DNA of 64,000 nt. Origin: Desarmillaria ectypa (Eukaryota; Basidiomycota; Agaricomycetes; Agaricales; Physalacriaceae). Shown piece after piece: positions 24,038-54,238 of this stretch. The stretch covers positions 4,092,001 to 4,156,000 of the forward strand of contig JAUDYN010000003.1 of assembly GCA_030407005.1 (NCBI GenBank), written 5' to 3'. The notes under the pieces were generated by a model that was given only the letters and a program-made list of their open reading frames with translations, made no database searches and had not been told where the DNA came from. Positions within the stretch are counted from its first letter, which is position 1; each line of letters begins with the position of its first letter. The position numbers were made by a program, and so were the translations under genes.

Positions 24038-24232
24038 ATGTGCACTTCATCGTCGTTCACGTCGACATCTTCCAACAAGGTTTACCAGTCATGCGGTCGC
24101 AAAGTGTCCAACCTAGACTCAAAGTCGCTGTCGTCGAACGCACCAATGTTCATCCGTAGTAGACCCAACGAACCTCAATGCTGCCATTGCGGATGGAGGG
24201 GCGCCCATGCACCAGGGTGCCCTTTCAAGTAA
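24038..24232 (+). CDS. small CCHC zinc-knuckle-like protein, family copy 1
   Basis: A 64-residue protein of a family I do not recognise, with paralogues at 41032-41193 and 54056-54238. It starts MCTSSS, has a Ser/Asn/Lys-rich variable middle without signal peptide or membrane segment, and ends in a conserved tail, 'EPQCCHCGWRGAHAPGCPF', before a final Lys. C48, C51, H57 and C61 form C-x2-C-x5-H-x3-C, close to the CCHC zinc knuckle (C-x2-C-x4-H-x4-C), so metal binding is plausible. The ATG is chosen because MC-x-SSS is shared by all three copies. A TATA-like element lies about 90 bp upstream, and 'gtatctaaac' followed by 'aatactgc' in the leader recurs before copy 3. A probable 56-bp intron (24255-24310) begins 22 bp after the stop. 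Function is unknown. Confidence 0.8.
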   Translation: MCTSSSFTSTSSNKVYQSCGRKVSNLDSKSLSSNAPMFIRSRPNEPQCCHCGWRGAHAPGCPFK

Positions 24233-24254
24233 ACGACTGGGATATAACTTGTCC

Positions 24255-24310
24255 GTATAATGTTCTCCCTTCCCTTGTCTCCTGTTGCTTATCAGCATCG
24301 TCGTCCTCAG
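24255..24310 (+). other. probable 3'-UTR intron of small gene copy 1
   Basis: The GT donor (gtataa) is 22 bp after the stop codon. 'ttgctta' serves as a candidate branch site and the acceptor is 'cctcag'. Introns at the same relative place can be drawn for the other two copies. Confidence 0.4.
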
Positions 24311-25293
24311 GTCCCATTCCGAACACCAGTCATGCCTCGCGCGCCCTTTTGCTTTTCATTATCTCCCAATTTGTTACCATTGTTGTCTATCTCTGTCGCC
24401 ATATTTGTACCAGTCCTTCTGCTTTTTCTCATCGTTTAATTTCCCATGATTGCTTTTTATTGCTGTCAATGCTGTGCGTAATGCTGGAATACATATCTTA
24501 ATACGCTTTTCGTCGGTTTTCTCCTATATTTATTCTGTATGTCCAACATTGGTTGTACTTGAACATTCTTCTGTAACTTGATAATGGTTAACTCTCGAGC
24601 TCGAGATGAGATGGTTTGTCGCATTCATATATTCAAATTATTCCTTGATGCACGTTTCAAGAAATAGAAACACGTTCAAGGTTGCACTCCCTGAGAAAAG
24701 TCAGCATACCTGAATGGGGTAAGTAGCATGACACGTACTATCGCTGTACAGTATCATGCCTCTAGACCGACCATCCCTCGTAACGTAGCTTGGCACAAAG
24801 ATTCGCCATGGTGCTGAATTGGAGCATTAACATAATAAACTTGTTAGTGACAAAGCGATGAAATTTCAGGTTAGTAATTTAAAGAGAACATTCTGATAAT
24901 AAAAGTAGCTCTATTATCGAAGTCCTATCTTTGAACGGCAAACATCAGCTGAACACATGAAAATATTCTAGCAATTCCGCCAGAATCTCTTCTTTCATAG
25001 TCGTTTTATTTACAATGACAAGAGCCTTGGATTCAGTAAAGGTCCTCTTTGGAATTTGAAGATATCGATATTTACACCAGCCCCAGTACTGGAAAGGACT
25101 CGCGAATAAGTGTATTAGTCTATAGATCAGTACGGTAATGCTTACCATGTGCCGACGGTTGATCGAAGATGAACAAGACAGTGGTCTCCGGATTTACCGG
25201 ATCATGTACTTAGATGGCCACCTTAATTGTGACATCGATCATGTCGTGAAGCATTCTGAGATAGTGTACTAATTACCTTGCTTTCGTCTCTGC
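24311..25293. other. no supported gene
   Basis: The first part is probably the 3' UTR of the small gene. Beyond it nothing is recognisable. Confidence 0.45.
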
Positions 25294-25722
25294 TTAGCCC
25301 TTTCTGACACTTTCTACAGGCGGGTTGGCATCCAATCTTCTGCTGCTGCATCCCTCTTGTCTTTCTCTATTTGGACCGCGAGACTGATCATTAAACGCCC
25401 CTGTCGCAATCTCATCCCACCCCTCATCAATGTCCTCCTCCATATCGTAATTGGGATCTACTTCAAGATAAACAACACTATCTAGAGTTGCTGCCGCATG
25501 ATTTCCAAGTTCATCCTCGCAATTCGAATGAGAGGCCTTCGGATTTGGCCGCGGAGTGTCTGGGTCTTCAGCTGTTACTGGCACTGTCTTGGTACCTTGA
25601 TTTCGGAGACCGGTTATATTGTGTTTCGCGCGCTTTGAAGGTCTGCGCCTGCTTTTCGGTTGTGCATGAACGGCTCTATGGAATTTAATGATTCTGACAC
25701 TATCAGACGGGAGACAATTGCG
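25294..25722 (-). CDS. orphan open reading frame, possible 3' exon
   Basis: An uninterrupted frame of 142 codons on the minus strand with no ATG in its first two thirds. The encoded sequence has a non-random layout. A basic stretch (KSRRRPSKRAKH) resembling a nuclear localisation signal comes first, followed by a strongly acidic part (DPNYDMEEDIDEGWDE) and a polar tail ending at a stop. It could be the last exon of an unrecognised gene, or part of a decayed element. Upstream on the minus strand I cannot find a matching exon. I assign no function. Confidence 0.25.
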   Translation of the reverse strand, partial: RNCLPSDSVRIIKFHRAVHAQPKSRRRPSKRAKHNITGLRNQGTKTVPVTAEDPDTPRPNPKASHSNCEDELGNHAAATLDSVVYLEVDPNYDMEEDIDEGWDEIATGAFNDQSRGPNRERQEGCSSRRLDANPPVESVRKG

Positions 25723-26142
25723 CTATCTCCGAAGTCCTTCCCACGACTTTTAGGGGGTACGCCAAATTTTTAGGGTAAATTTCGGTCAAACTGACGTTAT
25801 ACGAAACCGGATACTGCATATTATTAGGTCACTTTCGTGCAAAAAAAACCCCACCGTTTATTTGATGAGGGTCCTTCTAAAAATAGGTCGGATTTTTGGT
25901 GGACTTTGCTTGTCCATGACTGTACATACAAGTGTTTCACACCACCTTCGCACCTTAGAGGCGGTAATTCCGTGGTTTTTCCTTCACTTGGCTTGGCCCC
26001 GCGGTGAGCGTCATTGAACCTTGTCAACTTTTGATGTGCATCCAAAGTTGAACAGGTGTCCGTTCTTGACATGAACCGTGCGAAAAGAGGCGTCGTCTTC
26101 ACACCACTGGGCTCTGTGAGGCTGTATCGGAACCGGTTATGA

Positions 26143-28392
26143 CGAAGAACAGAGGAGGAGAATTACGTGGAACCCCCAATAATGTGACGCTTTCGATGAA
26201 CGTTTGAACAAACATGCCAAGTCTATAGCTCAAGAATTCCAGCTACTAGGAGGAAGCGGAGAATGCACCTTTTCCAAACAGTAGAATTCATATTGTCAAG
26301 TAGGGGAATAAATAACGCGGATTATGTGGTATCGGATTACACTTTCTTTCGGTCAGAGCGTCTGAATTCTGGGACATTGACTCATGGTCATGTAAGCCGC
26401 AATCGGAAGACTCAGAACATCAAGGTTTTTGATTGAGATATACACGAATAAAAATCAAAAATGTTGTATGGCGAGTCAGAGCCACCATCATTAAGCTGAA
26501 GGGTGCCAACCTCTCGTGCAGTAAGTACACAAATGACACAAAAAAAACCGGATATCTGCGTCGGTCAACCCTTTAGGAAGAACGGGCCGCGGACCGATGT
26601 CCATGGACCTCCAAGCGTGAAGCTATCAAAACTGGATGCTTGCGGATCGTTACACGTTAATAACTGGTCAGGTAGGCTGGCCAGGCCCATTTTGTTCATC
26701 GAATCGGAAAAATAAAACCTCTTAAACGTCAAAGCACAGCAGGGGGAGATACCCGAGAAGCAGAAATGCTCACCATACCCGGAGAAACATCTTTATATGT
26801 TTCCGACACAAATATGACTATCTTTTGTGAGCCTCTGCTGGGTTGAGTCGGTGCATGAGCAATCCTGAACTTTTTGACAAAGCGGTCGCACGTCGATCAG
26901 CTGCCGCACATAAAATAAAGATTAGTCACATCAAGAGAACGTCCCGGTAAATTCCATGAAATCCTCTCCTACCGGAATCCCTATCGTTACCAAAAAAAGG
27001 CGATTCTTTTTAGTCACCGCTTTTATCATCTACTGTTCGGTACCGTAGCACGAACATGTGCAGCACGGACTCTGATTGGTTTCTTTCTCAGGGACATGAT
27101 AATCAGATTAAATATCCCTCACCTAACATGAAGCTCGTCATCGGAACTCGGGTCCCCAGTTCACTACACACAGATTAGGAAAGCAGAAGCAAACATAGGA
27201 AGATGGGCACACCCTGTTCCCTCTTGAATAGATACCCCCACACCTGGAAGAAAAACCACTGCTGATGCGAAATCGTCAAGCAAGCCAAGTTTCGACGTTA
27301 TCTCGTCCTGGGAGATGTGACCATGTGTTGCCGATAGGTTACACATTCATATCCTGGCGAGAAACCATTGAAATGATGGAAATGATGGTCTGCATGAAAT
27401 TGAGGGAAAAGGTACTCAAAGGGGGGACCAGTGCAGCAGCAACGAGTTTCAAGGGATCCGTGCCATGCCTTACAGCAGAGAAATTCCGTGTTTGATCCCT
27501 TCACTGTTCGTTATCGTTCTTCTGGGGTGGTGAACGTGACGCGTCGAGGTGTTTTACGGTATCCAAGGTCACAAGTAGAACTCGACGCGTGGGGTTCCAC
27601 TGTCACCATGAACGTGCGACACTGCATGTACGTGGGTAGAATGAGATTCACTTCGTACGAATGAATCCAGACTGTACGGAAAAAGGGTTCAAATCGGAAA
27701 GAAGGACAAAGGAATTACGTGGAGCCCTCAAAGAGGCGAATAGTAACGCCAAGTCAGTTATGCAGATGGAAACAGAGGAAGCAGAAAGCAGTCCTATCTA
27801 GCACCGGAGTTTATGCAGCCGAGTAACGGAATAAAGAGCAGAGTCCACGCAGCGTGGAATTATAAGTCCTTCCGCGCTGGACATGTCAATTCGCGGTTCT
27901 CTGGTCATGATCATGGACAGTACACAAAGAACATTTGGAAACATGATAGGTTTTAATTCCAAGATACAGTATTATAATCTAAACAGCTGCATGATGGGTC
28001 AAAAAAGTGTCATTACGCGAAAGGATAACAACATACAGCTAAGTACACAAGTGCCGCCCTTGATGAATCCTTCATGATACCCGACTCTGCACCTGAAAGT
28101 GGGATGTAGCATCATATGGAAGGAAGCAGAATCTGACGGGAAGAACTAGTGATTTGTCTTGGAAACCCTCTGCGAAGAACAGACCGTCACGCGTCAAGGT
28201 CAGCGCGAGCGACGTCCTTGGACATCCACGTAACGAATGTATGCGGAAGAACGTCGCCTAGAACTGGTGGCGTAGGCCTGGTCCATTTTCCCATCAAATC
28301 CGAGCAATAAAACCTCTGCAGCGGCCAAGCATGAGGAGAGCGTCGAGACCGACAATGGCTCACCATCCTCAACACTTCCCGGAGAATTAATT
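26143..28392. repeat. two diverged direct copies of a ~650-700 bp sequence
   Basis: 26143-26790 and 27698-28392 share an ordered series of short matches: 'gaattacgtgga' near the start, 'ggaataaa', 'agtacacaa', 'gaagaac', 'cattttg/c', 'aataaaacctct', 'ggctcaccat'-like and 'cccggagaa' at the end. Identity is low, so the duplication is old. No frame stays open through either copy. Confidence 0.5.
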
Positions 28393-29020
28393 CCGTACTT
28401 ACACCAAGGGGTTATACATCGCCGACGAGAACGATGTCCTTAATCGTATGGTATAGTACTCGGCGGCAGCGTGCTCGTTCGAGGAATTACTAGATTGTAA
28501 GAGTTAAAATAGTCAATGATGGGAGAAGCTCAAATTTCTCGGACTAATATGTAGTGAATTCATCGGTAATCGATGATCCTAGCCGACATCGGTTGGTCCC
28601 TCTGATTAACATTGCAAGGTGAAACTCAGATTTGATTTGTTCTGCGTCGCGTCCGAGTCCGCGGTAGACGTCCGATAGAAAATATCAATGGGGGAAAGGG
28701 ATGAGCAAGCGGCCGCCCATGAAGTGGGAGTATAATGACGGTAGCGAGGAGGTTTCCGACCCTCAATCAGTGATCACAGCAGCTATACCCCGGACACCTG
28801 GTGCGCACGGGCCGGCGACGCCATTCCTTCGGAACTACAAAGACAAAGCGTCAAAATAATTGCATCTTCCTTCACTCCGGTGGGTGCGTAATTAGGATGA
28901 AAAGACCTGCACAAAAGATATACCTATTTTTAGACAAGTTTTTGAGACTAAAATACCACCAATGTTATGTGAGGTATTTTACGTGTTGTACCTAACGTTT
29001 TTCTCCACGTCCTTTGTGCA
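28393..29020. other. no supported gene
   Basis: Nothing recognisable. A 64-codon frame at 28801-28995 lacks any motif. Confidence 0.45.
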
Positions 29021-29465
29021 CAAAGACGTATGGAGATACCTCCTGTTGTATATCCTCCTTGTGAACATACTTCGCAAATTCGATCTGAAGAATTATGAGA
29101 CGAGGTAGGCATCGAGTTTTGTTCTATTCTATGCCATTCTTAATTGATATTGAAGACATGTTAACTTTCGTCACTAGTCCGTTTCTGAAGTCTGCGTGGG
29201 CGGGGATGCCAGGGTAAAGGTCGTTCTCATGATTCTACAGCCTAAAGCTGCGGAACCCTTGGATTAGTGCATCTCTCCCAGGCATCTCGCCCGCATGGAG
29301 GATATAGTCTATGAGAAACTGGAGTCAAGGCAACTTGAAAACACTGCAATTCCATACTATTTTGGGCTGCACAAGGTACATTTTCGTGTTGATTAATCGT
29401 CGTTTTGGTTCATATTCTGTGGCCAGCTGATGATCCCGAACGGTAGAATGGAGAAGTAGCGCACG
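29021..29465 (+). pseudogene. cytochrome P450 3' fragment
   Basis: 'YILLVNILRKFDLKNYETR' followed by a GT at 29106 is the post-haem segment of a fungal P450. It is closely related to the end of the pseudogene at 13079-14119. The haem loop and everything upstream are absent. Downstream intron-like sequence and a second block (29378-29460) also match that locus. This is a truncated duplicate of the same gene family. Confidence 0.75.
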
Positions 29466-29681
29466 TTTTTCCATCGCGTGGTCTATAACACAGGGCTGAC
29501 TTGACTTAATTGTCCATCCAACTAATTGGGGACCGCCAAACCAAATTATTCCCCGGTCTGCCTTTGTTAGAATGGGTGAATATTCTACGAAAGTTGAGTT
29601 TACAAATCATTGAGAGATCGCGAGTAGCAAAGAAAAATCAGCAGTCTCGAGATATGCCTGAAGCTATACAAAAGATTCAGG

Positions 29682-30945
29682 TCATGAAAATCTAAAGGCT
29701 GGACTTTCCCTTTCCAAGAATGCCCATGTTAGTTTGTCTTTCCACCCCTTCGCTTTCCAGTCGTTCAGACTCTCTGGGAATTCATCAATCACCCCAGGAA
29801 CAGTAGCATCATGCGCAATTATAACCAGAATATCAGGGCTCGCATCAAGCTTACCCAGTTTCGTGATCGTGCTGCGAGCGGTTGGTAGATCAGCGTAGGC
29901 AGACGATTCTGATGGGAGAGAAAGGAGAGGGGTGGTACGCTCTGCGATGGAATGGCCTTCGAAGGATTGGAGGACATGTCCAGGACAGGGGAAGTGCGTA
30001 TGAAGGTCAGCTGTGGGCCGCAGCTGGCCGACATGATGGCAGGAGTCGCCACCGAGTAAGATGAACGACGTCGGAGTAACTCGTGCAAGGGCGGTAATAT
30101 GCCCTACTTGGTGCTACGTCGCAACTCGAGTGAGCTGGATTTCCTATGGACCCGTAATCGGGAAGACTTACGCCAGGGGAATTCAGGATGTATAGACTGC
30201 CATCAGAGAAGTAGTCGAGCGCTTCGCAGTCGCCGATAGTGAGGTCGAAATTATTAAGGTCAAGCTCCGTTACTTTGCGACCTCTGGGTGTATGTCGGCG
30301 TCAGCTACACGAAGCAACAATCATGCGAATGATCTTACGCAAAATCAGACTCGAACAAATGAGACTCTGGTGCGGTCGGATATGTACGAATATCCAAACC
30401 AGGTCCAACGACAAGCTCAGTGCTGGCTGGAAACTTTGACATCTCACCTAGTGGTACTGTAAGCTCTCAAATCTCATCTTGTGAGCTGGTGCAGACATAC
30501 CAGTATGATCTAAATGACCGTGACTACATGATGAACATACATTTAGATCAGTTCATAATTGTCTTGATAACACAACTTACCTCCAAATAACTGTATCAAT
30601 AGTCGCCGGGTCAACCCCACCTTCCTGGAGCCTATCAAAAATGTCTTTATCAGAATAATCCAGCGCGAATCCTTTGGTCTTCCAGAGCGCTGCCATCTGT
30701 TTGGCTACGGGAGCAGAGGTCTTCGGATCCTTCCGTAATCCCAAGTCGAACATTAAGCGTTTCCCCGTTGCGCCGTGCTCAATATAGAACGTGTAGATGG
30801 GTGCTTTAAGTCCTTCATACCCCGGAAGCACCGGCTCAAGGACGAATGCAGCAGGTAATATTGATGATGGCGCGCCAACGTCGATAGCTTTGACAAGGAC
30901 AGTGGAACCCGAAGATGGAATACCAAGATCGAAGAACGAAGACAT
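29682..30945 (-). CDS. metallo-beta-lactamase-fold hydrolase (lactonase-like)
   Basis: Intact gene of five exons on the minus strand: 30945-30581, 30523-30501, 30447-30339, 30283-30172 and 30113-29682, with four GT-AG introns of 53 to 58 bp. It encodes 346 residues. The metal-binding signature is H123-x-H125-x-D127-H128 in 'SHGHLDH', with H204 in 'SPGH', D226 in 'GGDSCHH' and H304 in 'IIAHD' as further ligands. This is the full set expected of a binuclear zinc hydrolase. The family includes lactonases and related hydrolases of many fungi. The substrate cannot be told. A very small 23-bp exon carries most of the HxHxDH motif. I start at the ATG opening 'MSSFFDLGIPSS', which fits homologues as I recall them. 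An in-frame ATG 23 codons upstream would add a hydrophobic leader. No signal for secretion is present with the chosen start. Confidence 0.9.
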
Positions 30946-31022
30946 GCTGAAGATGCAAAAGTGCGTGGAGATCAGTGCTAGGACCGAGAGTCGTATATTG
31001 TAATGTATGGACAATGGTAGGG

Positions 31023-31030
31023 TTTATATA
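31023..31030 (-). promoter_or_regulatory. TATA box of the metallo-beta-lactamase gene
   Basis: 'tatataaa' on the minus strand lies about 78 bp upstream of the chosen ATG at 30945. If it is the core promoter, transcription would start about 30 bp downstream of it, so the upstream ATG at 31014 would fall close to or before the cap site. That favours the shorter protein. Confidence 0.5.
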
Positions 31031-34000
31031 GCCTGAGAGAATGACGTATTGACGGGACAACTGAGTCAGGCTGATGATTCCGCCCGGTGCGATGCTCGCA
31101 TACCACGAGTAATCATATAAGGCATGTACCGTCACCACGTTGAGCCTTACCACAAGCGGGTAGTCGACATGTGCAAAATTTTGATGAATGATTTTCTGTA
31201 GGTCTCACCTGTGGTCCATATCCTTAAATACTTTATGAGTATATTTCAAAATATTCTCCAGTGTTATGATAAATATTTAGGGAGGGTATGTTGAGTAGAA
31301 CAGTTGTAGGGCGGTGGCCGAGGTGGAAGCGTAAAAAATCCCTATATGGAAAATCCCGTCACAGGGAATGTGACAGTCAAATTGGCTACCATTCCCGGCT
31401 ACGGCTCGCTGATGACCAACTAGCAATGAGCAATGGTAGAGGAATCAACACCCAGCTCTGACGTGATGGAGGAGACGGCAAATTCTCCAGGTCGCCGCTA
31501 CTAAAAAATGTGCTCTTTCTTCCTCCTTCGTAGGTCTGCAAAAATAACTATGAGACAATAAGCAGAAGAACATCATTTCTCAGTTACTTTGAAGGTCCAC
31601 TTGGGATGATAGGTGTCGATCACCAAGTCGCGTCCAATAGTCTTCCGTTGGTGGGTAGAGTGTTTCGAAGGTTGACCAAGGTGCAGCATACGGGAATTGT
31701 CAAAGAGGATCATAAGAAGCATAGAAGAGAACAGCTCTTTTCCAAATGTGTGCATAGTCGGTTAAGAAGGACGAGGATATTGGTAAGAAATCTACCTTAA
31801 GGGGTGTCTTCAACCCAAAAACAGTGCACGATCGGCGTATATTAGCCAGAGTACGAAGAGTCAAAGACACCACATAGAGGTAAAAGTCACAGGTTAAAGA
31901 AGCAAAAAGGCCGAAAACGGTGCATACGTAGCTATCCGAAACTGTAGATAAATATAAGATAAGAAATACCATATCTACCCGGTCCGTAAGAAATCCATAT
32001 CCTTTACAATATTCCCTCTGAGTAGAATACAAGATCTTGAAGTGATTTATATAGAGATAGTCATTCTCACACACACCAAAGCGGACAGGGCAGGCGTGGA
32101 ATTGCTGAGTGCGTCGCGGAACATAGAACTTTACATCGAGTACTAATGAAGTGGAAGTCTAGTAATCAGAAGAAATGGAGCGATAGAAAACCTGCATGAG
32201 TTAGCATGAATACCAACGGCTGTCATTTCCGTGCGTCCTGGAACATTGATGCTGTCGACACAATCCATCGAATTCATGACGATCAAATATCCGAAGACGT
32301 ATCGACAAGACCTATTAAGGAAACTGCTTACCCACTTATATGAAAGCGAAGCGGAATGCAGCATGGCGAGCTATTAGACTGAGGGAGAGGCGTGAAGTCC
32401 AGGGATAGGCGACGAGATGTAAGGCGATGAGATACTTCAAGAAAAACAAAATATATGCGGTGGAACAACAGGTACAAGAATCCAGGTCTTCGTTTACATT
32501 TGTACATTGGAATTCTCGCCGATTGGCGTATACGTGTTTGACGGACAAACAGGAAGTAGACCTCGAGAAATGCCATAAAATAGTATTCTTGATTCTGATT
32601 TCTCACTCTAGGAACGCGAGAAGAGCCAGAGCTACTGGTCTCAATGAGCTATAAGTATACATGTCGGCAGGGAGTGAAAGCCGTACTTTGTTTACATCGA
32701 GTTCCATAAGTTCCCCGCTGCTGCTAACATCCGCTTCTGACAGCTGTATCCTCTCTATAATTATCCGTCCTCAAATAAAGACAGCTCGTGGGAAAGATAT
32801 TTTGTAGAGATATTTTGATACTATGGTAAATTTCTCCGTCTCTCAGATTTCAACTTCAGGTGTTAGGAGACCTGTACCAACGGTTATTTAGTCACTGGCA
32901 GAAGGATATGGAAAGTTGACAGAAGAATTTGTATATACGAATCACATACTGTGGCTTTTTTAATGAAAGTTTATAGAGCTTGTCAAATCATTTGCGCTTT
33001 GTTCAGGAGAAGGCGACAGACCGTCACAGTACCAGCCATAGTATCCCAGATTATAAGAACGGAAACAAAGCAAATATCCTACGCTTACTAGATTCATTGC
33101 AGTAGCATGTCGTTGTGCCATCGTTCCATTATGGCTATCGCAGCATCATTATGTTTTGACAGAGCTTTGGAAGATGATGCTCATTATGGAAAACGTATTG
33201 TTAGGGAACGGCCTACCTACCTTATTGTTTGTACAATTAGACAGATTTCAATATTAGCGGAGAATATTAAATGCAGGTTCGTTTCGTTTCCGACAGGTCG
33301 TGTATGTGCAATGTACTGGCAGCGACAGAGTGTCGGAAATCGGCCCGAGATCTTGATCAAGGCGACACGGCATATATTTTTCCACGACTTTGTTTGTTAC
33401 CATGACTATCGTCTCATTCTTCTATGGATCCTTCCTCCCCATGCTGGAACCCCGTATATGGGCTTTTATGGGAGCATTTTCTGTTATTCACGGCAGGAGG
33501 ATGTCCTTTGTAAGGGAAATGAAGAAACGACTCAAGAGCGACGCGGTATACTACTTTGTCCTGATGCCTTTGACAGATAATGTCATCAAGAATTATACTG
33601 CAGGTGAATTTGCTGTTATACTTGGAAAATACGTCTTGTTGGCGTTGCAGATGCGGTTTTCTCGAGGTGAGGCCTCGCTTTCGTGGCTCACCACAGCTAT
33701 CAGTACTGCCAATGCGTTGGCGCATCACGAGAAATAAGTTCTCATCACACTTAAACCCAAGAAACGGTTGCACCGAATTTCGCAGCCGCGATTGCCTGAA
33801 GTTGGCCGTAAGATCTGATGGCGAAGAGGTGCGTAATGTTGCCCATCATAATCGTCTTTTTCTTGATGCATTCATAGTGTAGAGGCCTATGATTGTCGAT
33901 CTCAACAAAAGCTTGCTATCTGTCGAGCGACAGTGAAGACTCGTCACCTCGAGCGGGATACCAGAATCGGCTTATCCACGATGGAGCTTTGACAACGAGC

Positions 34001-34324
34001 ACGACCGTTGCAGGTGCAGCAGTGTACCTGGCCAATAACGTGCCAATGCTAGTTAAACATTTCTCTGGTCTACGATAGTTCATTGAATCTGGATATAACA
34101 TGCAACATGGATACAAACAAGGGCTAACACCGACATCTATATGTGCCTCGTCCGACATCGGATCTGAAGCTCAGCTTTCGGCCCTGCTGTAAATTTTAGA
34201 CGTCCAAATTTTCATGCTCTGGTGGGAAATCTTCCGCTCATTCATGCTGTTTGATTCTTATAATGATTTATTTCTAGGAGACATTTTTAGCAGCGTCCGG
34301 CCCCGACCCATGGCATCTGTTCCA
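31031..34324. other. no supported gene
   Basis: Two overlapping frames at 33107-33580 and 33390-33737 are the longest here. The second has hydrophobic stretches, but neither shows a family motif, intron pattern or paralogue. I leave both uncalled. Confidence 0.4.
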
Positions 34325-34472
34325 CGAATATCCTTCGTTTATCTCGTTCCGGCTACCGCGTGTATTCATATTGATGCGACACGGATCACCGGAGCGAACA
34401 TGCAGCAACGAGAACATCAACACATGTTCACCATGCAGAGTCATCCCAGGTCTTCATTCCTTCATTGCCCCC

Positions 34473-35276
34473 ATGATGGATCTCGCAGCTACGTATCATC
34501 CTAGCTTCAATAGCCCAGATGCCGACGCCATCTTATCCTCCCGGGATGGCACATTATACCGTATTCCGTCGGTCATCTTGCGAAGGACCACAACATTCTT
34601 CGCTTCAAGCTATTTCACTTTCGGACCAGATAGCAAGCCCATCCCCATCCACGAACACGATGTCGTTCTCGAACGGCTGCTACGGATCCTCAGCGGTCTT
34701 GCGATCCCACCTTGGCACATATTTGGCGAACTCGAAGGCGTGCTCAGTCTAGCTCAGACATGGGGAGCAAAAGGCGCGCTGGATATCATACGCGCATCTA
34801 TCACTGCTCCCGTGTTCCTGCTAGAACCACTCCGGGTGTATGCAATAGCGACGAGGTTCGGGTGGGAGGAGGAAGCCAGGCTCGCGTCGAAGCATACATT
34901 GTGCTTATCTCTCCACGAGGAGCAGCACCAGGAGGCACTACAGCAGATCTCGACGCGGCCGCTCATGAAACTGTTCAAATTTCACAGAAAGCGGCGAGAT
35001 GAGTTTCGAAAGGGAATGGAATGGGACGCGAGGTGTAGAAGGTGTGATAACCCTGCCGACGGGTCAGTGTGGACGGCACTGGTATGGAAGATGTTCTGGG
35101 AAATGGATGTGAGGCCGTCAGGGGATATGCTGTGTTCTTTAGAGATAGAGGAATGGCCGGAGATGGATGCTTGCCTGTCGGAAAAATGTCCGGGATGTGG
35201 AAGGTTGGTGTATGATCGGTTGGAGGTGCTGGAGAGGGTGATGAAATGTCTGGCTGAGTTGCCCGATACGATCTGA
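34473..35276 (+). CDS. BTB/POZ-domain protein, intact copy
   Basis: 267-residue single-exon protein. Residues about 9 to 110 form a fungal BTB/POZ domain. It opens with 'FNSPDADAILSSRDGTLYRI', the usual start of this fold in fungal proteins, and continues with 'FGPDSKPIPIHEHDVVLERLL' (beta/alpha part of the domain). BTB domains mediate dimerisation and, in many proteins, recruitment to CUL3 ubiquitin ligases. That role is not shown here. The C-terminal half has two Cys pairs, C188-x2-C191 and C239-x2-C242, which could bind zinc. The start is the ATG at 34473 because the pseudogene paralogue at 10359 also begins here (M then 'DLAA'). Open frame extends upstream without a better ATG. It is the functional member of an inverted duplicate pair and has no stops or frameshifts. 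Confidence 0.82.
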   Translation: MMDLAATYHPSFNSPDADAILSSRDGTLYRIPSVILRRTTTFFASSYFTFGPDSKPIPIHEHDVVLERLLRILSGLAIPPWHIFGELEGVLSLAQTWGAKGALDIIRASITAPVFLLEPLRVYAIATRFGWEEEARLASKHTLCLSLHEEQHQEALQQISTRPLMKLFKFHRKRRDEFRKGMEWDARCRRCDNPADGSVWTALVWKMFWEMDVRPSGDMLCSLEIEEWPEMDACLSEKCPGCGRLVYDRLEVLERVMKCLAELPDTI

Positions 35277-35289
35277 GGACATGGGTTAG

Positions 35290-35720
35290 GTTAGGGTGCT
35301 CCTATCATTTTAGATTTTTTGCTGACGGTATATTTGCCTAACGTCCTCGCAATGAATGTATCGAAGAAGCATCCGATATTTTTCATGGATGTAGGTGCGC
35401 ATCCTGTGCCTCGTTGCCGACGTCAGTTATGACAATAATGTATAGTTTAATCGTCGAAATATATTTGTCTGCATTTACCGTAAGCCTCGTGATATCATGA
35501 TACTTCTGTACATATCATTGATGAACACTATCTAGTCGTATGCATGACCTACTAATCGTCCAATCCTACATTGTATCATTGTATCACTATCTTGCTTGCC
35601 ACGTAAGACCGTGCTTACTGTGAGAATACCAGCTACAAAGCTGGATCGTGAACAATTTTCACAAAATATAGGGAGAGCTGCAGGATAGGCTACCTGGACA
35701 TGTCACGGATCATAGTCTAA
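35290..35720 (-). repeat. dispersed repeat, copy 3 of the BTB 3'-flank repeat
   Basis: Reverse complement of the sequence at 5030-5420, and in part of 9050-9290. It begins directly after the BTB stop codon. All three copies are non-coding as far as I can see. Confidence 0.75.
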
Positions 35721-40937: not shown

Positions 40938-41031
40938 GTAACTGGAACTGATAAAAATGCAGACGATCTTTCTACATTCAAGTTCCCCAACTCGCACCTA
41001 CGCAGGTATTACTCTCCCTCTGCTAATAACC

Positions 41032-41193
41032 ATGTGCACTTCATCATCATTTTCTGTCCCAATCTTGGGACACGAAACGTTACATGCGAGACCGGTCTTA
41101 ACTACACCTGTGCCGACCCGTAGAACCAGCGAGCCTCAATGCTGTCATTGTGGGTGGAGGGGCGCACATGCTCCTGGATGCCCCTTCAAGTAA
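41032..41193 (+). CDS. small CCHC zinc-knuckle-like protein, family copy 2
   Basis: 53-residue member of the unrecognised family, the shortest of the three. It starts MCTSSSF, like copy 1. Its middle part (residues 8-33) is unrelated in sequence to copy 1 and rich in Pro, Thr and Arg. The tail 'EPQCCHCGWRGAHAPGCPF' plus Lys is identical in protein to copy 1. Cysteines 37 and 40, H46 and C50 form the C-x2-C-x5-H-x3-C motif. Across the 19 shared tail residues, the three genes differ only at third codon positions, which argues for selection on the protein. A probable 57-bp intron (41213-41269) starts 19 bp after the stop. An in-frame ATG 25 codons upstream is ignored because it is not conserved. 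Confidence 0.8.
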   Translation: MCTSSSFSVPILGHETLHARPVLTTPVPTRRTSEPQCCHCGWRGAHAPGCPFK

Positions 41194-41269: not shown

Positions 41270-41422
41270 ATACCTTACCCACACCACTGTTTTGCAAACA
41301 TCGCTATATTTTCTTTCTGTTATCACGACCGCATTTTTTTCTGCTGCACACATATCTTAACATACTTTTTTTGTCCCCGCCCCTCATCTTGTATCACCCT
41401 TTCTACGTCCTAGAATTGTAGC

Positions 41423-41602: not shown

Positions 41603-42752
41603 AGAAGCACTTGAAGAAAAGAGGTCGATCGGCCGACTGTTGTTCAACCGAACCTTGGCTCCGAACAATAAGCGTGGTATCCCCTGCCGGACCGATGACT
41701 TAACTCTCAGCTCCGAAATCACTATGGCGACAATGGGGTCAGACTTTAACTACCAACCTGCCCTCCGACGCGCTCTGGGAGTCACTATGGTACCAATCAC
41801 TCACACTACCAGCAGCTCCACATTACAGATTATTGACCTTACTTTTATAACATAGAATCCTTTCGCATTCGAATCCTACTCCAATGCACGTTCCCTGCTT
41901 TATCAGAGAATTCGCGATCGGACTTGTGACGCGATTTCGGGTTTCCACAGACGTCGGTATCATTGCAATTTGGGAATGCCCGCACATAGAATATCATTTC
42001 CTTACACTGCTCCGTGCGTTCTTTCCAAGCAGAGATACTCTAATCTTGTCCTGGTAAAAATACACATCGCCGTGGAGCGGTCATTTCCGATACGAGCATG
42101 AGCTGGAATGTCTATAATTAATGAACATATTCAACCCGACTGATCGACAAGATGGGGTTGTATTTTCGGGAGACGATCAGTTTCAATTCGCGTCAAAATA
42201 TCTGCTCAGATGACCCCACTCTGCCGGAAGGAACAGAATTCAAATAACGTGGGAGTATCACATCGTACGGGAGCATGGGAAATAAAAATAGTAAATGCAG
42301 AAATGGTCCTTCAGAACAGCAACCTTGCGATAAATTTCTCACGTTCTCCTTAACGGCCCAAGTGGAAATAAATCTTAGTCGAAAATGAAATAGTGTACGT
42401 ATTAGAATACCGTATCTCATTTTACACCACCAGTTGCATGGAGGAGACCGACTTGGGTACATGACCATTACTGTTGATACGATGATAATGATTAGTAAGA
42501 ATAAAATGCAGGAGCGTAAGCAGTCGAAATCAAATTCGTGCAACAATCTCATACTATCTTCAGCAATAGATGTACCGCCATTTTGCGGCGTATCCAAAGC
42601 TTGAGACTCCACAGTCAAATCCGACTCAGTATCAGAAGCATGGGGACTTGCGGAAAGGAATAGCGTCGATTTGGTTTCCGTAAGAGAATCATCTTCAAGT
42701 TGAGATGGTCTAATAATAATCAAAAACCAGGGTACCCATATTGCGAACATGC
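41603..42752. other. no supported gene
   Basis: Nothing firm between the short frame and the 3' end of the crotonase gene. An open frame overlapping the gene end on minus is a by-product of its last exons. Confidence 0.45.
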
Positions 42753-43925
42753 CTACAACTTTGCAATCGCGCTCGGGTTCTTCCAGACCGGGGACCGTTT
42801 CTTTACGACATATCAGCATCATTAGGTCAAGAAAGATACTAAACCCACTTCGACAAAAGCCCTCAAGCCTTCCTAAATTAACGTACCAGTCATCAGTGAG
42901 ATATTAATAAGAACAAAAGCCCACTTACCTTCAAGTTTTCACCTCCCAAGAAAAGCCCGCTGCTCTCTGCACTCCATGCTGCATCCAATACGGAACGATT
43001 GCTGTCTTCAGCGAGGATGAGCGCTCTCTTCGTAGTTTGTACTGAATCAGGAGAGCATTTCTCGACCAATTCCTTTGCGTATCCGAGAGCCGTCGGCAAG
43101 ACAGACAACGGAGGTGTCAGCGCATTGATACTAATCACGGACAATATCAGAAAAAAAGAAAGGTAAGCAATCAGCCCAAATGACTCACAAACCGAACCTC
43201 TCATAGGCATCCTTTGCCATTATCGTCTTACCGAGGAGCAACATCTCGCTAGCTCGCTAAGAAAATAAAATTTGAGGGCGTTAGGCCCGAAACTCTAAAA
43301 ACTTGAAGCGAACAAGTAACATACCTGATGTCCAGCAATACGCGCTAACCGAGGTATACCTGATAATAGAATTGTTACTATGAATCAATCCCAAGCTGAT
43401 GCAGCGCACCTCCTTGAAGAGCTACCACGCCCCTCCTCACTTCTGGCAAAGCAAACTTTGCCTTCTCATCCGCAATAACTAGGTCGCAATTCAACAGAAT
43501 TTCCATCCCCCCACCGTATGCACCCCCATTAACAGCAGCAATGATAGGTTTGGTGGTGAGCCTCCTGGAAATGCTCGCAAATCCATACTTATTCGCACTA
43601 ATGTCTATCTGATCGCTTGACGCAGCACGAACAAGACGACTATCCCACCCCTTCAGATCTGCTCCAGCACAGAACATGCGTCCAGTCCCTGTCAAAACCA
43701 GAACCCTAACGCAAATTCTATCAACGTCAGGACGGAAACAAAACGACACAAGACTGACCACAACTCCCTCTCACGCTCGAACCAATCGAGCACAGCGCGC
43801 AGCTCATCCGCGAGCTCGATGGTGACAGAGTTGAGGGCATCGGGGCGGTTCAGGGTAAGCAGGAGAACGTGGGGGGAAGGGAAGGCGAGGATAAGTTCTG
43901 ACGAATGCGGGGGTGGCGAGGACAT
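42753..43925 (-). CDS. enoyl-CoA hydratase/isomerase (crotonase superfamily)
   Basis: Intact seven-exon gene on minus: 43925-43759, 43705-43410, 43359-43325, 43256-43189, 43130-42929, 42872-42849 and 42800-42753. All six introns are GT-AG, 48 to 68 bp. The product is 279 residues, normal for the family. Crotonase features are present: the oxyanion-hole segment 'FCAGADLKGW' at 67-76, 'NGGAYGGGME' at 115-124, and 'ALPEVRRG' at 141-148. Glu124 and Glu144 occupy the two catalytic glutamate positions of hydratases, so hydration of an enoyl-CoA (or a 3-methylglutaconyl-CoA-type substrate) is plausible. Substrate is not determined. The tail 'NPSAIAKL' ends in AKL, fitting the peroxisomal PTS1 consensus [SAC][KRH][LM]. 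This tail depends on the short last exon; reading through intron 6 would instead end the protein early without AKL. No TATA box is evident upstream. Confidence 0.92.
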
Positions 43926-46900: not shown

Positions 46901-48458
46901 AGTGAATGGATGAGGGACGTACGCTTGAGGCTCAAGACCATAGTCAAGGTCGGGAGCAGAGCCTTTTTATTCAGCAACACAGACATCAAAGAACGTACCA
47001 TTATACCCATACCGAGAAGGAAATCATCATGACTCGATCTACACGAGGTTCGCGGAACACTGGCTGAAGGAAGGCAGACCATGCGGTTTACCATCGTGCC
47101 CGTTTTATGTTGGACGTTCTAAGCCCCCCATCCTCATCGCCAACGAAGCAGATCATCAGTTCACCATATCAGCGAACAACCACAGTGCTGTCGAAGAGAG
47201 TCGCCGTTGGCAAATCCCTAGTGAATATAAACGGCCATTATACCTGTTGTAGACGAGGAGGAATATCGACTTTGGCTCCAGCATCTTACCCGAGCGTAGC
47301 GATCATTCACCAACACGACCAGTGACAACGAGATCAAAGAGGGGTTCTCAAGCCTCTCCGATGGCAACCACTTCAACCTCTGTGATTCAGAAGAGTGGCT
47401 CGGGCTTTTTACGTAGCAAAGCATCAAAATGACGATGATGATCATCCATGCGCAGCAGCACGTAACTAATAAAACGGTCTTTGAGTGCTGAAGGGGAGGC
47501 ATTGAATAAGATTAGATAACATCAGGGAGCGTACAACACGGTGATCTTTTGGGAGAGATCTATAAGAGGGAGATGAAGCCTATTACAGGAAAGCTCATCT
47601 TGTACGGAATAGTACGGACGTATCGGCATATGCCCCAGCGAAGTTTAGGGTTTGTAGGGTTTGAATAGGAAGTTTCAATTGAATGAGTTCCGTCCGGTGA
47701 CTTTCCAACAAACATACCTAGGGTCGACAAAACACAAAAACTAACCAAAGCACCGCAGCTGATGAATACAGTCATTCGCGATATTTCGCCACAGCAAATC
47801 ATCAGTACCAGGATCAGGACGCCTCGTAAAGGCCACATGTCCTGAAGCCACGGGACGTCTCACAGTAAGTCTAGATCAGAATCTTTCTCGGTTCAATTTT
47901 AGGTTCACGGGGCGGTCCTACAACTTAGAAAGGAACCGTCACTCAGATGTCCAACGTCAGGGACAAAGAAAAGAGACCGCATCCCATCAAACTCTACAAA
48001 GCCGGAAAGAACGACACAGCCGTTGAAACGAACTGCTTCCTTGCAGTCATATTATAAATCAAGTTAGATCAGCATCATTTATTGTTCGATTAAACAGCGG
48101 TTGAGCTGGTTGACATCGGACGAGGAACACGCAAGGGATCGTCACTGAGAAGTCTCGAAGTGAGAAAGAGAAATCTTGAAAGGAAGGAGAACACAATTCA
48201 TTGGGCGGAATTAGGCGCTAACTGGACAAAAAAAAGATGTAAGAAATATTAATCATGTTCGAGTATCATACAAGCCGAAAGCTATTCAGATTTCGTCATC
48301 CCAATTGCAATAGACCAAAGCGCCGCTCTAACAAGTCAATAAGATCATCACCATCATCACCATCATTACACGGCTAAGATCGTAGGTAATTGTCCGAGCA
48401 CAATTAAAGCTTAAATAAAAACCATTACCGCTAACTTCAACTTTTCTTCATCATTATG
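43926..48458. other. no supported gene; possible decayed gene at 46.2-47.9 kb (minus)
   Basis: 4.5 kb between two intact genes. On the minus strand between about 47840 and 46480 several hydrophobic or coding-like short frames follow each other, with candidate splice sites (for example 'caacaggtataatgg' near 47240). I could not assemble a gene or recognise a family. 48340-48365 is a 'cat/cac' trinucleotide run just 3' of the glycoprotein gene. Confidence 0.4.
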
Positions 48459-50098
48459 CTAGAGCACAGCCTGGCTGCCCATGATCGCACCAATCGCACC
48501 AAAGACAGCAAGCCAGGACAGCTCGAACGCAACCGCACCTCCATTTGAGGCACTACCCGAACTAGCCGCTGAGCTGGCAGCTGCTAATCCTGTAGACGAA
48601 GTACCAGCACTAGAAGCACTACGCGTAGTCATCCCAGAGTGCGAAGAGGAGCCTCTACTAGTACCCATTCCAGCACTCGTCGTACCTTTTCTAGAACTCG
48701 TCGCACTTGAACTGGTCGACGTTCCGGTAGAAGTCCCGGACTACACAAATCAGCATAGTATAACGAGAGGAATACAACGAGACATACACTCGTCGCGGTC
48801 GTGGTCTCCGACACACCAGTCAGAACCGCACTCCCACCTCCGATTACAGAAACAGTCGTACATTGCGAGGATGAGGGTATAGGATGAGCATTTGGCGTAG
48901 AAGCATCACCTTGGTGGAATGTGGAGGTACCGTAGACACCCATAGGCTAGTTACGGCGTGAAGAAAGGGGGCGAGTGCATAGCCATGAAAGGAATACCTG
49001 TCCGCTGTCACCCTGACACGACTCGAATACGCCGACGTCGTAGTTGGCGGGCATGTTCCATGCGCATCCCATCACGTCGTAGATGTGTTGACCTAAATTC
49101 AGAATCTGGTCAACGACTATGAGACGAATGGATAGTCTTTGCTTTACTTACACCATGTAGGTGCCATGCTCCCAGCAGGATTGCAAGCCCTGAAGCAAAA
49201 TTGGTCAGCAGCCATAAAATTCTGTCAGGGATTGAGACACAAGCGCTGAGAAAAAAACTCTTGTCGCCCACCGTCCATTCGAACACCTGTTCAAGCTTCC
49301 CAAAAGCAGTAGAGAACACCAAACCTCCAATGGGGTTCCCTAAAATTCAACAACCTCAGATTCGCACTTCCGTTGAACAATAACTCGAGAGCCATTACCA
49401 TTCCCATCGGCACCATGAGGATCGAGCTCTCCACCACCATCGCCAGTAGGGATATTGAGCTTCGTTAAATCGCCCGTTCCTGAGAAAGGAACGATCTCAG
49501 AAAATATTCCCATCAAATTGGGGAGATTTGTACCAGTAACTTGAATGAAGTCTGGCGTCTGAACGAAATGTGCCCCTGTGATGGCACCGCTAGGAATCAG
49601 ACGGGTACCATAGCCGTCCTACGGGTCATCGAACAAAAGAGATTACAGCGACACGAAGGGAATAAGACCTTGAGACACCAAGATACTTCGATACGCTGCG
49701 AAAACCATTAGCATCTCCAAAGAAAGTGGCGAGCTAGACGAACCTCTGTGTTCCCAATACTAGAATCTGCGCCTGGTGTAGGTGGTGCCCATAGGCAGCT
49801 GTGGTGTTGGCACATCAAATATCTATCCTGCCGCGACCAAGGTACGAAACATACAAATCATCGACACCATTGACTAGATGAACATTAAGAACGAAATTGG
49901 CAAAGACGAACGGGAGATCAACTCGCTATAGATATTCTGGCACATCGAATCCTGGCTGGACGTCGTTCCACATTTATTGGTCCCAGTCTGTCCCTGTTCA
50001 GATGTGTCGGGCGCAGTATCAGGCAGGTAGGTCGCGCTATATTGCGCGCCTACTGTAGAGAGAGTGGCGATAAAAAGAGCGACTGCGAGGGTATACAT
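48459..50098 (-). CDS. secreted GPI-type glycoprotein ('macrofage activating glycoprotein' group)
   Basis: Eleven exons on minus: 50098-49927, 49873-49855, 49798-49744, 49695-49669, 49618-49534, 49479-49399, 49339-49272, 49221-49152, 49092-48998, 48946-48788 and 48740-48459. The product is 370 residues. The N-terminus (residues 1-18, ending STVGA) is a clear signal peptide. The Cys-rich core contains 'DDFCLWAPPTPGADSSIGNT', 'ELDPHGADGNGNPIGG', 'FCFRACNPAG' and 'CQHIYDVMGCAWNMPANYD', segments I recall from basidiomycete proteins annotated as macrofage activating glycoprotein. A Ser/Thr-rich stalk (about 250-340) is followed by a hydrophobic tail ending at the C-terminus, as in GPI-anchored wall proteins. 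Biochemical role is unknown; a cell-surface role is inferred. Intron 1 (49874-49926) needs a GC donor (gcgagt); introns 2-10 are GT-AG, 47 to 59 bp. All exon phases agree. Confidence 0.85.
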
Positions 50099-50151
50099 CT
50101 TGAGTGATGGGAGAAAGTAAGGAGGGATAGGGACGGGAATTTTGGGGGCCT

Positions 50152-50160
50152 AAATATAGA
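50152..50160 (-). promoter_or_regulatory. possible TATA element of the glycoprotein gene
   Basis: 'tctatattta' on minus lies about 55 bp upstream of the ATG at 50098, between a C-rich stretch and the start. Its position fits a core promoter with a short leader. Confidence 0.35.
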
Positions 50161-53100
50161 ACACCTGTCAGGAGCGCGGTATTGTTACCGGAAAATACGA
50201 AGTTGGGTAGCCGTACCTTTTGGCTGTGTACGGCGGGCAAATAAACGTTGATGAATGTAGAATGCAGGAGCTCACATGTTGTTATGCGGAGCGTAGCAGA
50301 GAAACTCAAGGAAAATTCAATATCTGGAGAGCGTAGTTAATAGCAATAACACTGACAGATAGGGAAAACACTGACAGACGCCCAAGAAATGAAATTATCG
50401 ATACATTGATAGGAATGATGAACCGCTGAGCTTCACCTGGTGAGGAAGTCGTCATCGCCTCAACGTATTGAAAGTTGAAACGTTGACAAAAGCTACAATT
50501 TAAAAGGACATCATTATTGGAAAATGATTTGCTCAAGAATGGAACATTTTTACAAAGACGCAGTGGATGGAACTGAGACGTCGGCAATCCAGTTTGTGAA
50601 CGTGGTGCAAGCACATGTAAATGGGCGTGTTTCTGTGTAGTTTTTTAAAAAATTCCGTTTGCCGCCAGTTCTATGCAGCAGAATTTGAGGATATGAGCAA
50701 GCTAATGGACCACAAGAACTACGAAACTGCTGCCAACATCAGATACCCCTTCAATACGCGCATAAGGAGCTCACCAGAAGTAGCCTTGGCTGGCAAGTCC
50801 ATGTAAGCACGACATGGTTGACGATTTGCGAGGGTGGTGAAATAGCCCAGGAGGTGTTGATTGCTCTGCTTTTACAACACATAGATACCAAGTATCATAA
50901 ACGAACAAGTAGTAGAATTTTCTGATGAGGAGAGATCAGCTAATTGACTACAGTAGTAAGACACTCATCAGACTAGACCAGGGCCAACATATTACGAAAC
51001 TGAACATATTCGTAAGCCGAAATGACCTGGATTAGACTATTCCATTATCGGCCATTCAAGTAACGTTAGGTGATGGAAATGGTGCTTGTAGGCTCCCTAC
51101 TTAGTGTGAAGAACCGTTGAGGATAGTAAGGGGAAGGATGAAGGGATTTAGACGCGCCAAAGAAGGTCTACATCATGCAAGCTGCGTGAAGTGACGAAAT
51201 CAAGGCTAAACGCCATCAATCAAGCGCTGGATATTAGATTCAACGCTACGATATCCTATATTTACAGAACATGATATTACAAGAACTTCGAGAAAAGGAT
51301 GGCCACTCTCCGCAGCATGCCATATAGATGGATATCTCCATCCGATTACAATGGATCCATACCCGACGTAAATGAAAGCAGAGGTCGCAAATTGGCTGTT
51401 CCTTCAACTGAACTACTGCATACCTTTGTACAAAGACGAACTGATAAGCAACCATACCAATAGCTGGGAGCTGCATTACTTTATTCAAGTTCAAATGCAT
51501 CTACCTTCCTACGTGTTGCTACACCACATCAATATAATTGAATCCTAATGGTTCGGCTGCGTCCCAGTACGCGTCGAAAGACTTGAAACTTGATCACGGT
51601 GGCGTATGGTGGATGTGGCAGATACATGAATCAACTGGCAGATATTCAATATTTTCCATTACTAAACCATGATTTAAGTCAAGAAACGGGTAGCATAAAT
51701 CGGTTGTCGTGGTCTAGTAGAAAGGTTGAAGTGGCGCCTGTTTGGCCTCCGGGCCGGCGCGTCTCTACGGCCCGTATAACCGGAACAAAACCTGACAGTC
51801 CGGACCGCCTTCTTTGTGACTGGTTCTTGCGCAATAATCATTTCTTATCCTGTCGCTGGACTTTATTTGGAAATAGCTACTCAATCATCTCTCTCAGCTG
51901 CTATATTTTTTCTGTCACTTCCATGAACATTACCTGTCTTTAGCATCGTGTTCAAATGCATCGGCAACACTCAAGTAGACTCCTATGGTCCAGCCTACTT
52001 GATGTGACCCTTCTGTCTCTTCTCCGTGTCATCATATTTTGGTACTATCTAGCTGCGAATAAGATGGACTACCCTTGCTCCCGGTAATTCTAGGATCTAC
52101 ACTATATACATTCCCCGTAGGAAGCATGTCTGTTTGATACTTTGTTTCAGCTTAGGACTGATATGGCCTCTACATGAGAAACTGATCGGCTTTTTAGATC
52201 TCAATTACTCTCACTCTTACTCGACTCTTACTCGGTATTGTACTGTATCCCAAGAACCCCTTACTAGTTCACTCTAAAATGTCCGCATCTTCTCCAGAAA
52301 TTTTTCCTATCAGGCTTGCTGCGCCCGAACTAATTCAATATACTGTCGTTCACCCGGTCCCTATTGAATTATGGCAGCCTTTGTCGGAGGGGATACTCCT
52401 TGCGTCTGCTATCAATATCTCTCCAGCTCCAATAGGAGCGTAATTGGTACTCCTCAGGCACATAGATCGTTAAAAACTCTACGAATCATTCTTCTGGCAC
52501 AGGAAAAGTCACAGACCTGCTCAGCCCTATTACTAATTACACTCGACTACATTCCCACTGGGACCATCAAAAAGCTGCGCAATGCGCTATCTTGATTCTC
52601 TAGTAATACCAACCATCAGGCCGTCAGTAAAATTGAAAATTTTGGGGGTAATGAACGCTCCCTGACATTTTGATAAGGGCTCGATACGAAATGGCCGTAG
52701 CAGTCACTATGAATCTTTAACTCGCACTACGGATTCTCTTTTCCTGATCAACACTGCCGTCTTTCTGTAATATATCAATGCATTTATTCGGCCACCTTTC
52801 GATGCAGACCAAGGCTATTGTTCTGTTAAATCCGCATTGCTCCTACGGGCTGGGACAATTGTTTCCGCTGGCTTGCGCTCACCAGACCTTGCCGCTGGGA
52901 CTGTCAAAGGGCGCGTAACTTATGTATTCGTTCACACACCGGGACATAGAATCACTCTTGTCCTAAGCGCCTCCGCAAGAACGTTGGTTTTCCCCTTGTC
53001 TGTGTTGGCATTCCCCTGCCTGAGACGGCTTATTTTTTTCGTACTCTGAATCGCCGCTGACCATATTGCAGGCCAGTCCTTTTTCATTTCCTTCAAATCC

Positions 53101-53974
53101 AAGTTCCAATTGTATCGAAAGGTGCTAATATAGTCCGATAAAGGTCAAATACAGAAAGTTGGCTTTAAGTTCGTTATTCTTTGATCCTGCATCATAAATG
53201 TATGGCCGATCGTCCGGATAGGCAAGCCCTTCTGAATTGAACTGCAGTGCCCTCCACTGACGGCAGCTACACCGAGATTGAATTGAGCAAAGGGGTCGAA
53301 GCAATGTATATGATTTTCTGACATGTCGGTAGTTTAAAGGGTCCGACGTCATACGGTACTAGTTGTGCGAGCTTTTGTCATGCCGGCGACTCAACGTTTT
53401 GTAGGATAAACAAGACATAGTGCCAAATGGTGATATTTTAAGCATTGCGTATCGTAATCTGACCATTCGCGTCGTCCTTCATTTCACTCACTATTCAGGA
53501 TCCATGGAGAGTTCATCCGGGCGGGCGAAAATCAATGTTCGTTGGAGCCAGGTACCAAATTCTTCTTCCCAGCCCGAAGTCCGTGTTGATTCGGAAGGCA
53601 GAGCAGAACATCAACGTCTTTTTTTTTACTCGGTCGACTCATTCGGTCATTGATTAAGTCAATGAAATGTTACGACATCGGAGGGTATCACTTCGCGAAC
53701 CTCATGTCATTTGCAGAATATACTGACCCCGGAACAGGCACAGATCAGCTTGACGAACAAACACAAGTGTACAATTAACTAGTTACAACTATATATAGCA
53801 CATCGAATAGCGTAAGATATGCGAAATAAATATATGTACAAGGTGAACGACAAGTGTCCTAAAATATGTATGCAGCATAACATGGAAAGCAGTTGCATAG
53901 TGACAGACAGCAATTATAACAATGATGGAATATAACCAAAATGGAACGATGTAGGAGTGTTCAGAGGACGTGAT
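50161..53974. other. no supported gene except one short frame
   Basis: Nothing recognisable in 3.8 kb apart from the short frame at 52279-52443. Confidence 0.4.
52279..52443 (+). CDS. hypothetical short open reading frame
   Basis: 54-codon frame with an ATG after a pyrimidine-rich leader ('actcttactcgactcttact'). It begins 'MSASSPEIFPIRLAAPEL'. The composition looks coding, but no family, paralogue or splice continuation is evident. It could be a first exon, a truncated gene or chance. Confidence 0.2.
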   Translation: MSASSPEIFPIRLAAPELIQYTVVHPVPIELWQPLSEGILLASAINISPAPIGA

Positions 53975-54036
53975 CTGATGCCGAAGGAGCTCGTAAGCGA
54001 CGGCAGAAGAGAAGGAAGAAGTGAAAGATAACTCAC
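53975..54036 (-). other. probable 3'-UTR intron of small gene copy 3
   Basis: The donor 'gtgagt' is 19 bp after the stop, the branch-like site is 'gcttacg', and the acceptor is 'catcag' (minus strand). Sequence and layout align with the copy 2 intron at 41213-41269. Confidence 0.45.
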
Positions 54037-54055
54037 GGAATTGTGATCGCATTCC

Positions 54056-54238
54056 TTATCCGAAAGGGCATCCTGGCGCGTGAGCGCCCCTCCAACCGCA
54101 ATGGCAGCATTGAGGCTCGCTGACTCCGCGACTGGTATTGGAGAGCGGTGAGCCCAAGGGTAGTTCTGAGACTGGGAGTGAGGGTTCGTGCCCGGAGTGG
54201 CAGCAAATGGGCAGAGAGGACGAGGATGAGATGCACAT
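54056..54238 (-). CDS. small CCHC zinc-knuckle-like protein, family copy 3
   Basis: 60-residue member of the family on the minus strand, starting MCISSSSS. The tail 'EPQCCHCGWRGAHAPGCPF' is identical to the other copies, but the last residue is Gly instead of Lys. C44, C47, H53 and C57 form C-x2-C-x5-H-x3-C. Its middle part has an additional 'CCHSGH' at residues 12-17, which could be a second, partial metal site. No signal peptide or membrane segment is present. 'gataaaaagcaggc' lies about 85 to 95 bp upstream, and the leader shares 'gtatctaaac' followed by 'aatactgc' with copy 1. A 62-bp intron (53975-54036) is predicted 19 bp after the stop. Function is unknown. Confidence 0.8.
   Translation of the reverse strand: MCISSSSSLPICCHSGHEPSLPVSELPLGSPLSNTSRGVSEPQCCHCGWRGAHAPGCPFG

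Follow-up and report, generated by a model that had tools for sequence, protein, structure and literature searches.

Investigating a 64,000-nucleotide stretch of the Desarmillaria ectypa genome (hereafter the window; positions 4092001-4156000 of contig C23 in a 40.6 Mb assembly of 32 contigs), we observed three short open reading frames with a common C-terminal ending: copy 1 (24038..24232, + strand, 64 amino acids), copy 2 (41032..41193, + strand, 53 amino acids) and copy 3 (54056..54238, - strand, 60 amino acids), all coordinates including the stop codon. Their translation bears out an earlier note made from this DNA, which had placed three tiny proteins here with the same beginnings and ends: all three start with MC[TI]SSS and end in EPQCCHCGWRGAHAPGCPF followed by K, K or G, respectively, and the stop. 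This tail (copy 1, 24170..24226, +; copy 2, 41131..41187, +; copy 3, 54062..54118, -), delimited by a genome tail search and codon comparison, is identical over 19 residues in all three copies, as had been stated. The MC-x-SSS start named along with it holds for copies 1-3, but within the whole family it is mostly a trait of the D. ectypa lineage. A TATA-like box was recognised by eye before each copy: GATAAAAGG (23938..23946, +) with the ATG of copy 1 100 bases downstream, GATAAAAA (40950..40957, +) with that of copy 2 82 bases downstream, and GATAAAAAG (54326..54334, -) with that of copy 3 96 bases downstream. Such boxes are likewise visible at seven of the eight remaining copies in the genome, the one on contig C5 being the exception. 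A second in-frame ATG of copy 2 lies upstream at 40957, where it falls on the TATA-like box, and gives a 78-amino-acid reading (P0005); in public models, the C28 copy and its Armillaria mellea relative (P0006, P0008) begin at a later Met. The start codons of family members are therefore not certain.

Some further features of the window should be mentioned. Pfam matches were obtained for two of the six window ORFs scanned: a coding stretch at 43378-43770 (-) matches enoyl-CoA hydratase/isomerase (PF00378, E 7.9e-21) and another at 3362-4489 (+) a fungal transcription factor domain (PF11951, E 6.6e-8). Most matched protein segments of two paralogous ORF stretches, 9262-10726 (-) and 34278-35273 (+), show a likeness of about 60-83%; the latter is a 332-amino-acid open frame with no Pfam match at E 0.001 and may resemble BTB-domain proteins. 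An interspersed repeat of 248 bases occurs three times on the - strand (9765-10012, 22937-23184 and 61340-61587; about 97% identical among the three), once more on contig C23 outside the window (L018, 94%) and at the start of contig C4 (L027, 94%), where partial inverted copies accompany it. The occurrence at 9765-10012 splits two stretches which match neighbouring parts of 34371-35067, so that the repeat seems to have been inserted in one of the two paralogous genes.

The genome was searched with two different tail queries, which led to the same 11 places, and all 11 first-look candidates scored E 2.2e-4 or better, which excludes a chance resemblance of the tail. Contig C23 carries four copies (the three of the window and one at 4178538), C1 two, and C4, C5, C6, C28 and C29 one each. 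The family, which had been supposed to be large and dispersed, is indeed spread over several contigs, but it is of moderate size, 11 copies being a lower bound. When the surroundings of ten copies (all except that on C5) were compared by blastn, most matching pairs without a long duplication shared just 59-171 bases around the tail, one pair having an additional separate match of 66 bases downstream. The surroundings of copy 1 (20039..27251, +) and of the C4 copy match over several kb in blocks of 79-84% identity (one 32-base block, 94%), and at the translated level this duplication extends from about 19.2 to about 28.4 kb of the window. The C6 copy matches both of these in blocks of up to about 1.2 kb (65-72%), the C29 copy matches copy 1, C4 and C6 over 322-416 bases, and the C23 copy at 4178538 matches copy 2 over 750 bases (66%). 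Judging from these alignments, some of the copies were probably born by segmental duplication. The stretch 48632-50149 of the window also resembles a stretch of C5 about 5 kb before the copy there; from 48632-50149 it is about 4 kb further on to copy 3, which has the orientation opposite to the C5 arrangement, and the likeness may stem from an ancient rearranged duplication.

Of the eight contig ends inspected, three are rich in telomere repeats: 34, 33 and 30 TTAGGG words stand in the terminal 1.0-1.15 kb of C29, C5 and C6, respectively. The ends of C23 and C1 as well as the starts of C4, C28 and C1 contain 0-2 TTAGGG and no CCCTAA. The copies on C29, C5 and C6 are consequently close to telomeres, at about 16, 6 and 1.5 kb from the repeat-bearing end, a proximity given here without a probability since clustered and duplicated copies are not independent; on C23, the distance from the four copies to a contig end that lacks telomere repeats is 79-141 kb. 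Not every copy need be functional: the C5 copy has an altered motif, with a one-codon shift in an ungapped comparison, and the C6 copy and one of the two on C1 (C1b) begin with MY and ML, respectively.

Comparison of the codons speaks for selection on the tail. Pairwise comparison of the three window tails gives 9, 6 and 8 synonymous against 0, 0 and 0 non-synonymous changes; 10 of the 19 codons vary, every change being synonymous, in agreement with the roughly ten synonymous-only codon differences first reported. A dN/dS-type calculation, proposed together with that observation, was run as pN/pS on the genomic copies: all 11 tails (55 pairs) gave pS 0.66, pN 0.075 and pN/pS 0.11, and the tails without the C5 copy (45 pairs) gave pS 0.67, pN 0.038 and pN/pS 0.06. 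The claim of strong purifying selection on a coding tail is upheld by this range of 0.06-0.11. The claim that the middles are unrelated and diverge freely fared less well. Copy 1 and the C4 copy are alignable over their full length, and some copy pairs are 50-58% identical over 60-68 amino acids, tail counted in, hence the middles are not all unrelated. Between copy 1 and the C4 copy, 9.8 synonymous changes at 33.0 sites and 9.2 non-synonymous changes at 99.0 sites fall in the 44 codons that precede the tail, against 1 at 11.7 and 0 at 45.3, respectively, in the 19-codon tail; constraint on this N-terminal arm is thus weaker than that on the tail, as had been thought, but the arm is not free.

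A protein database search with a profile built from the 11 genomic copies, which the earlier note had recommended along with the copy count, returned 145 proteins at E 0.01 or better. D. ectypa itself belongs to the Physalacriaceae (Agaricales) according to a taxonomy look-up, and those of the 120 listed matches that name an organism are, as we presume, all Agaricomycetes. Among the matches listed are Armillaria, Guyanagaster, Schizophyllum, Agaricus, Mycena, Pleurotus, Laccaria, Boletus, Suillus, Serpula, Trametes, Fomitopsis, Phanerochaete, Heterobasidion, Stereum, Lactarius, Punctularia, Neolentinus, Jaapia, Piloderma and others, as well as a few metagenome proteins without an organism. Some species carry several members (Abortiporus biennis at least four among the matches listed). 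A second search with 14 divergent members as query gave 179 proteins at E 10, the best 120 of which bring in, among others, Auricularia; no confirmed match to the tail was obtained in a scanned prokaryote collection. The copy on C28, with close relatives in Armillaria gallica and A. mellea (P0004, P0008), looks like the ancestral form. The database relatives are named hypothetical or uncharacterized proteins, and the only functional name among the 120 listed matches is the automatic UniRef label 'CCHC-type domain-containing protein' on at least four of them, so an automatic profile elsewhere would appear to catch some members. The family is widespread in mushrooms and apparently unstudied; a text search of the open-licence literature found neither a paper on the tail nor an entry for its spacing.

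We define members as short proteins with a variable arm and a C-terminal C-x2-C-x5/6-H-x3-C-P-F tail, a description which fits copies 1-3. The conserved region comprises the last 20 or so residues, PQCCHCGWRGxHxPxCPF[K/R]. Of 149 proteins, 138 have the spacing C-x2-C-x5-H-x3-C and the other 11 have x2-x6-x3; the loop before the His can thus be one residue longer, while H-x3-C is intact in 149/149, as is expected of ligand spacing. The commonest tail length is found in 115 of 122 proteins parsed (among them five D. ectypa entries, with copy 2 present in two readings, and some strains that are nearly identical). Within these 115, C1, H3, C4, G5, R7, G8, H10, C14, P15 and F16 are each present in 115/115, an invariance which is overstated because the database candidates were gathered through shared exact 5-residue words; position 6 is occupied by W in 107 and by Y in 8, and position 12 by P in 107. 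The second Cys of CCHC is substituted in four of the 115 tails and is therefore an unlikely ligand. The C5 copy deviates from the pattern, as does one Auricularia tail, which reads CCHCTVRGGGHAPGCPF, with the G-W pair changed. An Auricularia subglabra protein of 122 amino acids (P0125) contains two tails, both C-x2-C-x6-H-x3-C and each followed by DMSPPKPRR; it has the look of a tandem duplication, or of two neighbouring genes joined in the annotation. After CPF or CPL, the 149 proteins continue with a single K (63), R (44), G (4) or A (2), with more than one residue (34) or with none (2). A Cys-aliphatic-aliphatic-X terminus was considered and rejected, a1 being Pro and the last residue K or R in 107 of 149.

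The arm is rich in Ser (20%), Ala (12%), Thr (11%) and Pro (9%), with 5.6% His. Of the 107 M-starting proteins among the 122 parsed, 43 have H and 17 have C as residue 2. An AlphaFold2 model, weak overall (mean pLDDT 65.1, pTM 0.29) and without a match in a fold comparison, has block means of confidence of 54-59 in the arm and 75-83 in the tail. The tail was found in only two candidates of about 144-459 amino acids, both apparently ordinary members whose start was set too far upstream; a disordered arm and the scarcity of the tail among longer proteins are in keeping with a microprotein that stands by itself. A 12-residue hydropathy mean of at least 1.6 within the first 35 residues occurs in only 6 of 132 M-starting proteins, which would suit a non-secreted protein. 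On this crude hydropathy measure P0001-P0003 score 0.02, 1.18 and 1.22, and P0005, the longer reading of copy 2, has with 1.93 the highest value of the members scored.

Searches for known families gave no convincing match in Pfam (11 members, E up to 10), in Pfam plus NCBIfam (68 members, E up to 1) or among PDB sequences (E up to 10). The lowest Pfam E, 0.0039, belongs to an EGF domain in one of the 11 members, and the commonest weak match is zf-C2H2_11 (6 of 68 members, best E 0.018). The statement that no named family has this tail is thereby sustained as far as these searches go, but has to be qualified by the UniRef label mentioned above. The resemblance to a zinc knuckle which had been pointed out can be seen, but the classical spacing C-x2-C-x4-H-x4-C occurs in none of the 149 proteins, PF00098 is absent from the Pfam families reported for the 11 (E <= 10) and 68 (E <= 1) members, and a genome search with PF00098, in which 150 of the 556 candidates were scored, hit none of the 11 loci. 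Aligned by hhalign with eight knuckle peptides (of ten found in 12 loci of the D. ectypa genome), the family superposes over 22 columns with the Cys in register at E 0.006, the probability being 6%.

The reading we prefer, at a probability of about 0.45, is that the window ORFs encode Agaricomycete-wide intracellular microproteins in which a disordered, faster-evolving arm precedes a mini zinc finger, placed at the C-terminus and meant for a conserved partner. One Zn2+ would be held by Cys48, Cys51, His57 and Cys61 (copy 1 numbering) and would shape the tail so that the P-Q, G-W-R-G and C-P-F residues make one binding face; this face would dock on a conserved partner, protein or nucleic acid, and the arm may adjust abundance, modification or location of the putatively non-secreted protein. 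The copies would then differ chiefly in the arm and perhaps in the timing of expression. The spaced Cys and His, the loop insertion and the fixed Gly, Arg, Pro and Phe are in keeping with a docking peptide organised by zinc, some 20 residues long and closing with CPF and, in most members, a single basic residue; the conserved non-ligand residues argue for a partner. It should also be noted that the x5 gap between the second Cys and the His would make an unusually tight finger and that the invariant H3 would be left unaccounted for, both of which count against the mini finger. A bolder version, on the doubtful side in our opinion, is that of a signature microprotein of the Agaricomycetes with a zinc-finger type of its own, docking on one ancient partner present in mushroom-forming fungi, the multi-copy arms of the Armillaria group being alternative versions of the docking signal, some of them placed at telomeres.

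The same tail could be a true zinc knuckle binding RNA or single-stranded DNA, a derivative of the classical CCHC with the His moved by one place. The distance between the outer two Cys, which the x5/x3 form shares with the classical knuckle, the similar CG..G and CP landmarks, the hhalign superposition and the UniRef label agree with this, but the lack of canonical spacing and, in the scans described above, of PF00098 reports as well as the 6% hhalign probability do not, and a lone knuckle without a basic arm is expected to bind RNA weakly; we regard it as unlikely. Storing or reporting Zn or Cu in the manner of a minimal metallothionein would suit the Cys/His tail, the sometimes His-rich arms (5.6% His) and the H or C at residue 2 in 60 of 107 M-starting proteins, but is quite improbable: such a buffer or sensor would tolerate sequence change, and here G, R, P and F are as fixed as Cys (even if exact-word sampling overstates this) and the tail offers just five or six ligands.

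Small Ser/Thr-rich proteins, 113 of 149 of which stop exactly one residue past CPF or CPL, also recall precursors of lipidated basidiomycete pheromones, C-P-F-X being the CaaX box. This we judge very improbable, for 34 of the 149 extend by more than one residue and two have none, 107 end in a lone K or R, Pro-Phe as a1-a2 is unlike CaaX boxes, and conservation spans the whole tail of about 20 residues, beyond the last four. That the copies are mostly decaying or transposon-borne by-products without a function could be read from the changed C5 motif and from the position of some copies in segmental duplicates or near telomeres; it is hardly credible in view of the synonymous-only divergence in the window, a pN/pS well below 1 and relatives in many Agaricomycetes.

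If the mini-finger reading is true, C-x2-C-x5/6-H-x3-C with its 20 or so residues would be among the smallest zinc fingers and would add a type to their catalogue. The near-unchanging ending suggests an important job, and since the tail sits in proteins too short for most annotation, it offers a cheap entry to unexplored mushroom biology; it is small enough for synthesis, which makes zinc binding and partner pull-down directly testable.

Compared with known systems, the tail shares with zf-CCHC (PF00098) the C-x2-C, often a G after the second Cys, a G in the loop, the final C-P and, in the x5/x3 form, the span from first to last Cys; it differs in H-x3-C (149/149) instead of H-x4-C and in occurring singly, close to the C-terminal end of a microprotein. 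Fingers of the TRAF type and their C2HC relatives have a similar CxxCG..G...H-x3/4-CP wording with about 11-12 residues from Cys to His, against 5 or 6 in the mushroom tail, and none of these families was reported in the Pfam scans of the 11 and 68 members. According to two papers, conserved unannotated genes are numerous in mushroom-forming fungi (PMC10949477, PMC8893723), with 158 such families in Coprinopsis cinerea and 172 conserved unannotated orthogroups (the latter number from PMC8893723). Both snb1 (PMC10949477) and the orthogroups (PMC8893723) are like the tail family in that they carry no known domain and are conserved in mushroom-forming fungi.
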